Below are positions 3,228 to 14,407 of a stretch of 24,833 bases of DNA, in pieces. The position numbers and the translations under genes were made by a program. The notes beneath the pieces are model-generated. The model was not told the origin of the DNA, ran no database searches, and saw nothing but the letters and a program-made list of their open reading frames with translations. This DNA is from a virus, in IMG/VR virus record IMGVR_UViG_3300047667_000625, positions 1 to 24,833 of that record, one strand, 5' to 3'. Numbering within the stretch: position 1 is the first letter of the stretch; each line of letters opens with the position of its first letter.

Positions 3228-4562
3228 TTAGCGGCGATCTATCAATATACCACCTTGTGGTGCCGTGCGCGGCTGTATGCTAGGTGCATTGGCTGCTTGA
3301 ACTTCTGGTTCAGTTACAACATCGTCAGGTGTGTCAGATGTTGAAATAGGCGGTATACTGTCATTATGATGTATTTCTGGATAATTGTCAATAGGTTGCC
3401 GATGTAATATGCTTAGGCCGGCAAGTACAAGAACGATAGCAAGCGGGTCAAATACTAACACGATAATAATAATCACCCATCGGACAGCTTCTTCCAATAT
3501 TTGTGTATCAGTTTGTCCGTATATTAGTTCTGCAATATATTTGACAGGGCCTACTTCAACCTCTAACACTCGCAATTCTCCTTGTAGGCTAAACTGACGG
3601 GTTAGCAACTCACTAATTTGATTATTTGCAACATCAATAACCAATTCTTGTTGTGATATTTCAGCTGTATTATCTGCTGTAGTTACAGTTATTAACTGAT
3701 TACGGAATGAATTAATGGCTTCCTGCGCTCTTGCAATCTCTGCATGTGCTGCGTTGTTTAATCTAGTAATCTCTGCACGGGCGGCTATAACTGTGGGATT
3801 ATCTATTGTCTGAAGTCGCTCCAGACTGGTTATAATTTCAGCCTGTCTGGCAGCAAGTCTTGTTGATGCAATGTCTATTCTGTTACGAGTATCTGCCCCT
3901 AATACCCCATCAACCCTGGCGCCTACAATTGCCTGCAGCCGTTCCACGTCATTATTGCTCTGGGCGGTCGACAGCTCTTGTCGCTGCGATCTGATACGGT
4001 CTAGCTCTTCCTGTAGCGGTCCCTGTATAGTATTAGACTGCATAATTAACTGGTTTTGTGTAGCCAATGCACTTGCTTGCCGCAATGTAATATCAGCTAT
4101 TAAGCGTTCCTGTGTTTCTATACGGGCCTGTATATCAATATCTGCAGAAACAACGCGTTGACCAAAACTATCAATTGCAACCGTGGCGCGTTCAATTGTT
4201 TGCTGCTCTCGAGATATTTCTTGCTCGACACGTTCAATTTGTGCAGCAATGCCGCCACTGTTGGCAGCTTGTTCAATATGTGCTTTACTTAAAAATCCAA
4301 AGATGCCCATGCTTGTAATAAACATGAGTATAACTACTGCGCTTGTTAAATACGTTTTGGTTAGAAGTGGGGCATCATCCCAGAAACTATGCAACCAGAT
4401 TGCAGACGTAACTTTTGCGACTTCAAGTGTTACGCCCATAATAATAATAGGAATTACTGCCGCTGAGAAAATTGCAGTCAAACCAATAATACTATAATAT
4501 GCTGCCACAGCGCTGACTGCCAGAGCAACTGCTACTGTCCAAATTCCAAATATAAACTTCAT
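3228..4562 (-). CDS. Membrane protein with long coiled coil
   Basis: A 444-residue protein with about three N-terminal membrane segments (roughly 5-25, 28-48, 72-92), a long helical coiled-coil region rich in Gln, Glu, Arg and Ala (about 100-335), one more membrane segment (about 361-385, with VFDPLAIVLVLAG) and a Pro-rich tail of about 55 residues. The coiled coil is probably displayed on one side of a bacterial membrane. Residues 207-225 (ERLQAIVGARVDGVLGADT) resemble the core of a type 1 peptidoglycan-binding repeat (LQ...G...DG..G..T), which is unusual inside a coiled coil. The start overlaps the previous stop as ATGA, so translation is coupled. A full TATAAATA lies about 47 bases upstream. 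Function is unknown; an envelope role is inference. Confidence 0.88.
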   Translation of the reverse strand: MKFIFGIWTVAVALAVSAVAAYYSIIGLTAIFSAAVIPIIIMGVTLEVAKVTSAIWLHSFWDDAPLLTKTYLTSAVVILMFITSMGIFGFLSKAHIEQAANSGGIAAQIERVEQEISREQQTIERATVAIDSFGQRVVSADIDIQARIETQERLIADITLRQASALATQNQLIMQSNTIQGPLQEELDRIRSQRQELSTAQSNNDVERLQAIVGARVDGVLGADTRNRIDIASTRLAARQAEIITSLERLQTIDNPTVIAARAEITRLNNAAHAEIARAQEAINSFRNQLITVTTADNTAEISQQELVIDVANNQISELLTRQFSLQGELRVLEVEVGPVKYIAELIYGQTDTQILEEAVRWVIIIIVLVFDPLAIVLVLAGLSILHRQPIDNYPEIHHNDSIPPISTSDTPDDVVTEPEVQAANAPSIQPRTAPQGGILIDRR

Positions 4563-4867
4563 GTGTTAGTGCTTAACGCAAATCCTTGTTCTATTAACTG
4601 CTCGTTTATATTTATACGATTGTTGCAGTCATCAATTTTAAAGATTTGCCCTAAGCACCGCCCAACCTTGCCCCGTTTGTTATATGTTGTTTCACAAATA
4701 AAATCGGATGGTAATAGTCTAATTAAGGTATACATTGCCTCATTTGTATTGCCTACACCAAATAAACGAATATTTAGCCGCATTACTACGCCGAAGCTAA
4801 GATCAAAGTCTGCTTCTATTGTGTTACCATTAACAACACGAATCAAATGGCATGGAAATTCTCTCAT
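4559..4867 (-). CDS. Degenerate staphylococcal-nuclease-like (SNase/TNase) protein
   Basis: A 102-residue protein with the layout of phage SNase-like domains: VVNGNTIEADFDLSFGVVMRL (11-31), IRLFGVGNTNEA (33-44), GKVGRCLG (65-72) and a final LIEQGFAL. Active family members usually have DGDT in the first block and GIDTPE or GINAPE in the second, where acidic residues bind the metal. Here these read NGNT and GVGNTNE, so two metal ligands seem lost, although R34 of RL, E43 and the GR of GKVGR remain. It may bind nucleic acid without cutting it. AAGGGG lies six bases before the ATG and falls inside the hairpin described separately. The stop overlaps the next start as ATGA. Confidence 0.8.
   Translation of the reverse strand: MREFPCHLIRVVNGNTIEADFDLSFGVVMRLNIRLFGVGNTNEAMYTLIRLLPSDFICETTYNKRGKVGRCLGQIFKIDDCNNRININEQLIEQGFALSTNT
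4609..4616 (-). promoter_or_regulatory. Late-promoter-like TATAAATA upstream of the membrane coiled-coil gene
   Basis: Minus-strand TATAAATA is an exact match to the T4 late promoter consensus. It lies inside the end of the SNase-like gene, about 47 bases before the next ATG at 4562. Being inside coding sequence it could occur by chance. Confidence 0.5.
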
Positions 4868-4874
4868 TAATAGC

Positions 4875-4911
4875 CCCTTTAGTATATTTATGTACTATCT
4901 ATACTAAAGGG
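4875..4911 (-). promoter_or_regulatory. 12-bp hairpin holding a late promoter and the Shine-Dalgarno of the SNase-like gene
   Basis: CCCTTTAGTATA (4875-4886) and TATACTAAAGGG (4900-4911) are perfect inverted repeats around a 13-base loop. Minus-strand CATAAATA (4892-4885) crosses from the loop into the downstream arm. That arm ends in AAAGGG, which supplies the Shine-Dalgarno sequence of the gene starting at 4867. Read-through RNA would pair it away. RNA started about six bases past the core (near 4879) would begin AAGGGG, with the site free. T4 gene e and soc use this arrangement to block translation of early transcripts. Confidence 0.72.
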
Positions 4912-4920
4912 TATTATATT

Positions 4921-5490
4921 CTATGAGTCATCAACGTAGAACAGATGATCTCCAATTGTGCTTTGGTAGTTTAGCCCGTCTGCCCATCCAGGTGTTACAT
5001 AATTAGCATGATAATGATCTGCACCATCTGTCATGTCTGCAACTATACCATACATGATACGGTTAGCGGTAGCTGTTGCCATATCAGCAGCTTCAACTTC
5101 AGCAATGTTATTGCTAATAGGAAACACGTCGCTCTTTCCATCACAAAAGTATGAGAATTGGCAACGATGGCGGGTAATCGGGCCACCACCTCTGGGGCCT
5201 TGGTGCACAACTGCACACACTGTATCTGGAAAGCGTGTACTTTCCACTCGATTCATAATCACATGGCCGATTGCGGCCATTCCCATAACAGTCTGGTTGC
5301 CGCCCTCAAAGTAAATAGCTTGGGCCAAACAGTCTGTTTGCACACTATTGATACTGGGAAGGTTAATGTCTGCCAATCTTGGCGGGTGCACCCCATGTAC
5401 TTCGGCGCGCGGGCTGATATCAATAAACGTTTGTTCTGCATTAGCAGAAATTGGAGATATCAGCAGCGCTGCAATTAAGACATTTCGCAT
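4921..5490 (-). CDS. Exported SleB-family cell wall hydrolase
   Basis: A peptidoglycan hydrolase of the SleB/CwlJ (Hydrolase_2) family, probably a lysin. From the ATG at 5490 it has 189 residues. It opens with a typical Sec signal peptide, MRNVLIAALLISPISANA, with likely cleavage after residue 18. The domain follows: DCLAQAIYFEGG at 53-64 (E62 is the expected catalytic Glu), GHVIMNRVE at 75-83, FPDTVCAVVHQG, CQFSYFCDGK at 110-119, GADHYHANYVTPGWA at 156-170 and IGDHLFY at 179-185. AGGA lies five bases before this ATG; a longer frame to 5583 has no such support and would bury the signal peptide. A TTGACA promoter precedes it. The signal peptide implies export by the host Sec system rather than by a holin alone. 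Confidence 0.92.
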   Translation of the reverse strand: MRNVLIAALLISPISANAEQTFIDISPRAEVHGVHPPRLADINLPSINSVQTDCLAQAIYFEGGNQTVMGMAAIGHVIMNRVESTRFPDTVCAVVHQGPRGGGPITRHRCQFSYFCDGKSDVFPISNNIAEVEAADMATATANRIMYGIVADMTDGADHYHANYVTPGWADGLNYQSTIGDHLFYVDDS

Positions 5491-5523
5491 ATCTGTCCTC
5501 TTATATTGTTTGCTTACAATACA

Positions 5524-5552
5524 GATATAACAACACAGATTAATAGTGTCAA
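5524..5552 (-). promoter_or_regulatory. Sigma-70-type promoter upstream of the SleB-type lysin
   Basis: Minus-strand TTGACA (5552-5547) is a perfect -35 box, followed after exactly 17 bases by TATATC (5529-5524), four of six to the -10 consensus. The stop codon of the upstream gene (5551-5549) lies in the -35 box, as at the infC promoter. The start would fall about 25 bases before the lysin ATG. Confidence 0.6.
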
Positions 5553-5887
5553 GCGTTATTTTCTTTAAATCGAAAATAACCATGCAGCGTACCCTCTATG
5601 TTTTCCTTGCCAATAGGATTTTGACTATGCACATAGAAGTCAAACCCGGCAGGCAGCTTAAACTGATCTTCGCCTGCAATGTCAAGTTCAACAATAAATT
5701 TAGCAATATCATGGCCAGTATGTTTAACGTCACCAAGGTCATGATCGAAGCTAATATATGCTGGCATTCCATGAATACGAAAACACATCATAACGTCTTC
5801 CCAGTCACGAGCTATGATCCAATTGCGGCCGTCATTGCGGGGCGGAAATCTTTCATCATCAATAAACAGGCTATAGCTACTCATCAT
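5549..5887 (-). CDS. Cyclic-phosphate processing receiver-like (cREC) domain protein
   Basis: A 112-residue protein that matches the cREC group of receiver-like domains: SLFIDDERFPP near 6-16 with the acidic DDER cluster, ARDWEDVMMCF, YISFDHDLGD (acidic DHD), TGHDIAKF, and FYVHSQNPIG with the conserved His-Ser-x-Asn-Pro. These domains are predicted, not well proven, to act on cyclic phosphate ends of nucleotides or RNA. Three ATGs in a row overlap the end of the previous gene; AGGA is two, five and eight bases away, so I chose the middle one. A longer frame reaching 5929 would run through the upstream gene and is unlikely. The short length suggests a stand-alone domain. Confidence 0.83.
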   Translation of the reverse strand: MMSSYSLFIDDERFPPRNDGRNWIIARDWEDVMMCFRIHGMPAYISFDHDLGDVKHTGHDIAKFIVELDIAGEDQFKLPAGFDFYVHSQNPIGKENIEGTLHGYFRFKENNA

Positions 5888-10846: not shown

Positions 10847-13057
10847 TTAGATCTCGCAGGCACCGCCTGCGCAGGCAATTGCACCCATGGTATCTATATC
10901 AGTGAACTTCTTCTTTGACAATCCAGTTGTGAAGTCAATTGGTTTCATATTCTGTTGAATCTTGGCCCACTTGTGAAGTAGATACACATCTTTCAGACAA
11001 TATTCTGCCATCTTTTCGTCGCCATCAAAATAGTTTTCAGCAAAGTTCTTGAATCGACGTATCCATTCTGCGCCCAGGTCCTTCTGCTCACCAGGGCGTT
11101 GACTATCACCACTCTGTGCCATATAGGTTGCTACCCATAGATCACCAAAGCCTTTGAAGCTTTCAACAATTAATCCACTGGCAAACATTGATGCGCGGCC
11201 ATATTTTTCAACAAGCTGTACTTCTGTAAGTACTTCTGTAAATGGTGCTTGATTAAAATCTTTATCGCCTGTTGCTGCCAAGAAACTGATACCTGCAAAG
11301 CTGTCACGGTTATTGAACAGATATTCTTCAATATCATCCCATTGATCTGCTGCGACCTGTACTGTGTTGGACACATTATGTCGTACCGTTGGGTCAACAC
11401 ATAGTGATTCATCAGTGCCATACTCGACCCAACTTTGCTGCACAAGACGTACTTTTTCCAGAAGCTTGATACCGTACAGATCGCGTTTAAAGAGTGATTC
11501 ACGAGGAGCGATAACAGGAAAACTAATTTGGTAGTCAGTGCCATTAGTTGACCATACACTTTCTTCTACCATATAAGGATTAGTAGCTGCAAACATTTGT
11601 GCAACTTCTGTTTCTTTATTCATCTGAACATGACGGATATAACGTGGGCTATGGTCGCCATGGATACCTGAACTTGTGCCTAATAGAACGCTTGCGTTGC
11701 CACTTGGCTTTACACATGTGGTGCGGGCTGCTGGGTTAATGCCCAGCAAAGCGGCCATTTGGCGGTTAACTTTTTTAACAAGCTCAGCACCTTCTTTTAG
11801 TATTTCTTCGTCAAATAGTACATCAGGCGCGTTCATCCAACCAGTAACAGACACACCAATCAATGCTTCACGAGCAAAAATCTTCTTGCTTGTTTCATTT
11901 AGGAATTTGAAGTCTGTATAACCAGCCTGCAATGTTCCTAGAATAGCGCCAACGCGACATGCCTTGAGGAATTCTTCTTTGGTAGTACACTTGCTGCCGT
12001 TTATTTCAGATAGGTTGCATCCCTGCCATCCGCTAGTCTTTTTATCGCCTTCTATGAGCACAGGATATTTACCAATTTCAACACATGGGTTGTATGTGTG
12101 TTCTGTCGATTCTGTAAACACAAATCCAGGCTCACCAAATTCCTGAATTGACTTCATAATTTCTGCAAACTGCTCACGGCTGGCTTCTTTGCGCACAATT
12201 ACTGCACTATTATTTGAGCGGCCGCGCTGTGGATTATCCACATACCAGCTGCCTGTTTTTGCTTTAATCATTTCATCATCTGTTGGTGTAAACAGACAAA
12301 TAGTGGCTGAGCGTCTGACACCACCAGCTAATACAGCATCAGCGGCATGCATACAAATATCATATACCTCGATTGGCTTCAAAGCGTTTCGACCTGCTAG
12401 TACTGCGCCTTGCACCAGGTGTTCAATCTTATCAAGTGACTTGCGTAGTGGTTCTGGTCCTGGTGCTTTAAATCCGCCTGAGATCATTGCTCCCTTTGGG
12501 CGTACTTTGTTGAGGTCAAAATAGACACGCCGTCCCTCATACTCTGGATATCTGCCGCCTACAAAGAAACTAGACATAAGAACGTCTAGTGCAGTGGCCC
12601 AGCCCTCAATACTATCGTCGACTTCATGGATTTTAGCCTGACCTTTACGTTGTGCAATTAAAGGAAGCTTTGCGACATGGTGTGTTTGTACTGAGAACCC
12701 TGCGCCGGCTCCACATAATAACACGTAAAATAGTTCTCCAAAGAAGGCAGGTCTATCTGCATATGACGACGTACAATTGTACATGCGCATTTGGTGTTTA
12801 AGAATTTGGTCACCACCAAATTGCAATGCGCGCTGCGCACCAAGAACATATTTGAGTTTATATAATGCTTCTGCTTCATCAATAAGGATAGACAATTCGT
12901 CTGTCATCTTATCAGTGTAGAATCCTCTGTGCATGTTCATTACACGGGCAACGCTTTCTTCCCATGTTTCATATCTGTCGTTCTCCTCGCTCCAACGACT
13001 GTATCCTTCGTAAAATTTTGCTTCCCCCATGAGGGCGCGGGTATCGATATCTTTCAT
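10847..13057 (-). CDS. nrdJ: Adenosylcobalamin-dependent ribonucleotide reductase, monomeric class II
   Basis: Converts ribonucleotides to deoxyribonucleotides, using coenzyme B12 to create the active-site radical. At 736 residues it is close to the Lactobacillus leichmannii monomeric enzyme. Visible key residues: C95 in MYNCTSS and C347 in GCNLSEIN (the redox pair), NPCVEI at 323-328 (C325 as the radical cysteine, E327 as the base), the PSGNASVLLGTSSGIH loop, and a C-terminal CAGGAC pair (C729, C734) that shuttles electrons. The spacing between C325 and C347 is wider than in the Lactobacillus protein. GGAG lies six bases before the ATG. No intein or gap is seen. It needs no oxygen and no separate radical subunit, but relies on cobalamin available in the host. 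Confidence 0.96.
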   Translation of the reverse strand: MKDIDTRALMGEAKFYEGYSRWSEENDRYETWEESVARVMNMHRGFYTDKMTDELSILIDEAEALYKLKYVLGAQRALQFGGDQILKHQMRMYNCTSSYADRPAFFGELFYVLLCGAGAGFSVQTHHVAKLPLIAQRKGQAKIHEVDDSIEGWATALDVLMSSFFVGGRYPEYEGRRVYFDLNKVRPKGAMISGGFKAPGPEPLRKSLDKIEHLVQGAVLAGRNALKPIEVYDICMHAADAVLAGGVRRSATICLFTPTDDEMIKAKTGSWYVDNPQRGRSNNSAVIVRKEASREQFAEIMKSIQEFGEPGFVFTESTEHTYNPCVEIGKYPVLIEGDKKTSGWQGCNLSEINGSKCTTKEEFLKACRVGAILGTLQAGYTDFKFLNETSKKIFAREALIGVSVTGWMNAPDVLFDEEILKEGAELVKKVNRQMAALLGINPAARTTCVKPSGNASVLLGTSSGIHGDHSPRYIRHVQMNKETEVAQMFAATNPYMVEESVWSTNGTDYQISFPVIAPRESLFKRDLYGIKLLEKVRLVQQSWVEYGTDESLCVDPTVRHNVSNTVQVAADQWDDIEEYLFNNRDSFAGISFLAATGDKDFNQAPFTEVLTEVQLVEKYGRASMFASGLIVESFKGFGDLWVATYMAQSGDSQRPGEQKDLGAEWIRRFKNFAENYFDGDEKMAEYCLKDVYLLHKWAKIQQNMKPIDFTTGLSKKKFTDIDTMGAIACAGGACEI

Positions 13058-14370: not shown

Positions 14371-14407
14371 AAAAGTCTACTAAATTATGGTAATCTAGTA
14401 GACTTTT
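14371..14407. terminator. 12-bp hairpin, possible bidirectional terminator
   Basis: AAAAGTCTACTA (14371-14382) pairs perfectly with TAGTAGACTTTT (14396-14407) around a 13-base loop, in the 79-base gap before the nuclease gene. On either strand the stem ends in TTTT, so it could end transcription both ways, but the U-tract is short and lies inside the stem. Unlike the 4875-4911 hairpin, its loop holds no ATAAATA. Confidence 0.5.

Follow-up and report, generated by a model that had tools for sequence, protein, structure and literature searches.

Why should a late promoter lie inside a hairpin that covers the ribosome binding site of the next gene? The question is raised by a short intergenic region in the IMG/VR record IMGVR_UViG_3300047667_000625, analysed here over 24,833 nt (the window), with its genes on the minus strand. 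The upstream gene (4921–5583) encodes a SleB-type cell wall hydrolase (Pfam Hydrolase_2, E 4e-21) and the following gene (4559–4867) a 102 aa protein resembling staphylococcal-type nucleases (SNase-like), with degenerate catalytic motifs. Between them, on the minus strand, the arms CCCTTTAGTATA (4900–4911, the 5′ arm of the RNA hairpin) and TATACTAAAGGG (4875–4886, the 3′ arm) are complementary at 12 of 12 positions across a 13 nt loop, which confirms the perfect 12-bp inverted repeat described in the initial annotation. The hydrolase stop codon precedes the 5′ arm by 10 nt, and RNA reading through from this gene would include the whole hairpin. The Shine–Dalgarno sequence of the SNase-like gene, AAGGGG (4874–4879), lies mostly within the downstream arm, as had been claimed, and ends 6 nt before the ATG (A at 4867). 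The T4-type late promoter core CATAAATA (4885–4892) occupies the tip of the hairpin; it had been placed in the loop, but its last two bases already belong to the downstream arm.

We think it probable that the SNase-like gene is subject to an early-to-late translational switch of the T4 gene e or I-TevI type. RNA coming from the upstream genes would fold positions 4875–4911 into the 12-bp hairpin and bury the Shine–Dalgarno sequence. Once a phage late sigma factor of the gp55 type becomes active, transcription would start about six bases past CATAAATA, at 4879, and the resulting late RNA, beginning AAGGGG, would be translatable. The next gene downstream (3228–4562) would be switched on together with the SNase-like gene through the overlap of its ATG with the SNase stop codon. 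The geometry, the folding energies, the promoter assignment and the recurrence of the architecture in relatives agree with such a switch, while covariation of the stem at orthologous loci does not.

We take CATAAATA to be a late promoter from its motif and its conservation. All ten copies of NATAAATA in the window are on the coding strand, none on the opposite one, and for eight of them a gene start follows within 60 nt. One-mismatch matches to TATAAATA are not enriched in the window overall (50 compared with 51 by chance), so that the promoter signal is carried by strand and position. The T4 late promoter core is reported to span −13 to −6 (PMC1524935), and this spacing predicts the start at 4879 with a 12 nt leader, in line with the earlier estimate of about six bases past the core. 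The record looks like a fragment of a T4-superfamily phage, to judge from a gp41-like helicase, a PAAR protein and a ribonucleotide reductase (RNR) sharing 67% identity with its counterpart in Rhizobium phage RHph_I1_18; a megablast search of the window against phages gave no matches. A gene for gp55, the late sigma factor, is absent from the 24.8-kb fragment, and homologues are present in the 168-kb contig of the nearest relative and in RHph_I1_18.

Folding of both RNAs in silico, which the initial annotation had called for, gave a clear difference. Opening the Shine–Dalgarno sequence at 37°C is predicted to cost 13.1 kcal/mol in the read-through RNA, where its calculated unpaired probability is 0.05–0.16, and 2.6 kcal/mol in the RNA from 4879. 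The latter lacks the upstream arm by virtue of the promoter placement and begins with AAGGGG ahead of the ATG, as had been foreseen, and the read-through RNA would indeed trap the ribosome site. When the upstream segment was shuffled, none of 200 sequences matched the observed masking in either of two calculation variants, the second being minimum-energy folding. In one fold the stem was lengthened by a CTCAT/ATGAG helix that takes in both the start codon and the stop codon upstream; this outer helix was not seen when a longer context was folded. Upstream of the hairpin, where read-through RNA would originate, a single terminator-like match (12569–12590, minus strand) was found between 4911 and 13057, with totals of such matches at chance level. 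On the other hand, the proximity of the hydrolase stop codon to the 5′ arm means that ribosomes finishing the hydrolase might loosen the stem.

These values can be set beside those of T4 leaders treated by the identical method. In gene e, a helix masking the Shine–Dalgarno sequence is reported for the longer early RNA alone, with a late promoter within the sequence encoding the upstream strand (PMC3014915). The window resembles e in the masking helix, the promoter placement and the opening energies (13.4 kcal/mol in the read-through and 2.8 in the late RNA of e). It differs in the number of late promoters (two for e, one here), in the gene guarded (lysozyme in e, SNase-like here) and in the arms, which are unrelated. 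For I-TevI, I-TevII, I-TevIII and segB of T4 and mobE of Aeh1, a hairpin hiding the ribosome binding site in early or middle RNA has been described, with the late promoter sited so that the late RNA cannot form it (PMC2988022). I-TevII (11.3/0.3 kcal/mol, read-through/late) and segB (9.4/4.5) have 26–30 nt between core and ATG, compared with 25 nt in the window, but these genes are homing endonucleases in introns or inserted between genes, whereas the window's gene is SNase-like, degenerate and part of a syntenic block. For T4 soc, 49 and 25, too, structured RNA around the translation start has been reported (PMC3014915, PMC2988022); masking is moderate for gene 49 (6.2/1.0) and slight for soc (1.7/0.5). 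The proposed likeness to T4 e and soc thus holds well for e and poorly for soc.

The SNase-like protein matches Pfam SNase (PF00565) just below the curated cut-off (20.2 bits compared with 21; E 8.5e-4) and a PHROG endonuclease family with an E value of 6e-8. Two syntenic orthologues, L036 (39.7 bits) and L020 (34.4 bits), score above the Pfam cut-off, and an alignment (A1) reveals that catalytic motifs kept by relatives have been lost in the window's protein, which bears out its description as degenerate. Close relatives were found neither in viral nor in genome collections, and a search with the version from L003 returned its own contig as the sole match. Since the SNase-like protein has lost these motifs, late timing may serve the gene at 3228–4562, which encodes a conserved membrane/coiled-coil protein. 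This gene lacks a well-placed Shine–Dalgarno sequence and its ATG overlaps the SNase stop codon, so it is probably translated by coupling and the switch probably gates both genes.

Two further observations concern this neighbour. A perfect TATAAATA lies inside the SNase-like gene (4609–4616, minus strand), 46 nt before the ATG of 3228–4562, and is a possible second late promoter for it. In 18 of its homologues (L017, L023, L027, L028, L034, L035, L040, L043, L047, L049, L050, L056, L057, L063, L067, L070, L073 and L080) the late-promoter core stands only 12–15 nt before the ATG as called by our own analysis rather than by annotation, and no Shine–Dalgarno sequence was found; the late mRNA of these homologues would therefore be leaderless or nearly so.

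Orthologues of the SNase-like gene, collected through the neighbouring 3228–4562 protein together with a profile search, provide points against a switch. A late-promoter core is present upstream of most syntenic orthologues, usually 40–60 nt before the ATG, but the masking stem is absent from most of them, and the covariation that the initial annotation had expected at orthologous loci was not found. The nearest orthologue, L003 (53–54% identity), has an 8-bp stem including a G-U pair and masks weakly (4.3 compared with 0.7 kcal/mol). L036 and L020, with the core 26–27 nt from the ATG, have unrelated arms of their own (CCCTCCTA/TAGGAGGG in L036; GGTAAATACCC pairing with GGGTATTTATC in L020), neither clearly above shuffles in minimum-energy folding (49 and 11 of 200 as high, respectively). 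Unrelated hairpins also occur in L049 and L050, where the core is 39 nt from the ATG and 0/200 and 1/200 shuffles score as high. As the latter two exceed shuffles and the former two do not clearly do so, it is suggested, although not proven, that hairpins arose independently at the same SNase-like gene in relatives. The gene e structure is itself reported missing from several T4-type phages (PMC3014915), so conservation among orthologues is not strictly defining for this class.

That most orthologues do with the late promoter alone would also suit a promoter that happens to sit in a chance or neutral inverted repeat, with the SNase-like gene a plain late gene with a short leader. We rank this low and consider it unlikely. 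Perfect 12-bp repeats with a loop of 3–30 nt averaged 0.043 per window in 300 dinucleotide shuffles of the whole window, at least one appearing in 7 of them, and the repeat at 4875–4911, one of two in the real window (the other, by inspection, is a hairpin at 14371–14407), falls exactly on a promoter and a Shine–Dalgarno sequence. Moreover, selection for such elements in related phages is evident from their enrichment at late-promoter genes and their covariation at gp5-like genes.

The enrichment was seen in a survey of 324 late-promoter genes in 166 loci. Stems of at least 8 bp that pair with the Shine–Dalgarno sequence numbered 10 compared with 1.6 in shuffles, and those of at least 11 bp 3 compared with none, control heptamers giving 0 or 1; the one control case of 11 bp (AAATATA) probably represents the element of the window itself, because CATAAATATAC contains AAATATA. 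An element stands directly before the homologue of 3228–4562 in L052 (13 bp) and in L014 and L078 (7 bp). In the genome of the nearest relative the strongest element (15 bp, G-U allowed) precedes a gene for an Amidase_2 protein, likely a lysis enzyme and hence a parallel to T4 e. Pattern scans, which count near-duplicate contigs, gave mixed evidence on orientation: with CTCCTT..AAGGAG, stems of at least 9 bp before an open reading frame were found at least 18 times in the late-promoter orientation and at least 5 times reversed, but with CCCTTT..ATAAATA..AAAGGG the counts were at least 6 and at least 6, with no orientation bias among the matches listed. Since TTATTTT follows a G+C-rich stem of RHph_I1_18 in which GATAAATA is embedded, this stem may be a terminator, and we did not count it as a clear case. 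The pattern scan itself also yielded CTCCTT..ATAAATA..AAGGAG elements at homologues of a probable neck protein (L180/L227, L190, L206, L208, L271 and L286), gp13-like by eye and without a Pfam match.

Comparative support beyond the reach of a single locus comes from compensatory changes at gp5-like hub genes. Homologues of one such protein (Pfam Gp5_OB) were collected by protein similarity. Among homologues with at least 60% identity, TATAAATA tops a stem of at least 8 bp, G-U pairs included, in 24 of 25 distinct upstream regions, a sample that is biased in its closest members since the query came from the hairpin scan, those at 60–70% being less affected; at about 52% identity or below the count is 0 of 15. 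Among 13 distinct sequences, 89% of cells pair compared with 79% after shuffling, and 16 cells are changed on both sides compared with 6.8; as the alignment (A3) was hand-trimmed to arm5 + TATAAATA + arm3, it leans towards that structure. The covariation score is 0.335 compared with 0.153, with none of 500 shuffles as high, bearing in mind that related sequences can beat such shuffles without structure. Sliding the partners lowers every covariation measure.

Many of the elements at gp5-like genes have a T-run behind them and may double as terminators. A similar role could be imagined in the window, where the hairpin begins so shortly after the hydrolase stop codon: it might mainly be a terminator or a 3′-end stabilizer of the hydrolase mRNA, its overlap with the Shine–Dalgarno sequence being a matter of sequence economy. 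This too ranks low, and we find it quite improbable, as no T-run follows the window's stem on the minus strand (GGGGCTATTAATG; GCTATTA follows) and the stem is missing from the output of the terminator scan. Least probable of all, and also ranked low, is a DNA operator at which a dimeric protein bound to both arms would block the late promoter: the palindrome does flank the promoter symmetrically and I-TevI is reported to bind its own late promoter (PMC2988022), but the arms differ completely between relatives and genes while the pairing with the Shine–Dalgarno sequence and the distance to the ATG are retained, and the 18-bp arm-plus-core word has no second copy in the record.

The translational switch that we favour for the SNase-like gene belongs to a textbook class of mechanism; the novelty lies in the target and in an apparently wide distribution among environmental T4-like phages. 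A literature search, with most subscription journals outside its coverage, yielded no description in such phages. The classic T4 control, known chiefly from genes for lysozyme, capsid, recombination and homing endonucleases, would be extended to an uncultivated T4-superfamily phage and to a new target. More tentatively, we propose that environmental T4-superfamily phages might generally use hairpins that mask the Shine–Dalgarno sequence and carry a late promoter at the tip, a layer of control that would have evolved repeatedly. Its targets would include virion genes (the gp5-like hub gene among them), an amidase gene and the gene for the membrane protein encoded after the SNase-like gene, and the late mRNAs would start at the Shine–Dalgarno sequence or, for some membrane-protein homologues, at the start codon. 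The survey suggests that the elements can be recognized from sequence alone, which would offer a way to predict genes kept silent early.

Elsewhere in the window, on the minus strand at 1096–2715, lies a host-like block of genes for a ClpS-like protein (named by eye), Hsp20, ribosomal protein S21 and IF-3 (Pfam), in an order shared by many relatives. Within this block, TAAATA also sits at the tip of two further minus-strand hairpins, one at 1407–1439 before the ClpS-like gene (GGGAGGTAGTAAATACCTCCC) and one at 1936–1954 before the Hsp20 gene (CTGGTAATAAATACCAG); the Shine–Dalgarno sequences of both genes fall outside their stems. In the IF-3 homologue (2188–2715), the conserved N-terminal domain is not preceded by any ATG, GTG or TTG; the IF3_N domain is complete (Pfam E 7e-20) if translation is taken to start from the ATT at 2715, 7 nt after an AGGAG. 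In bacteria, an AUU start codon typifies the self-regulated infC gene. The IF-3 homologues of several relatives have ATG in place of this ATT.
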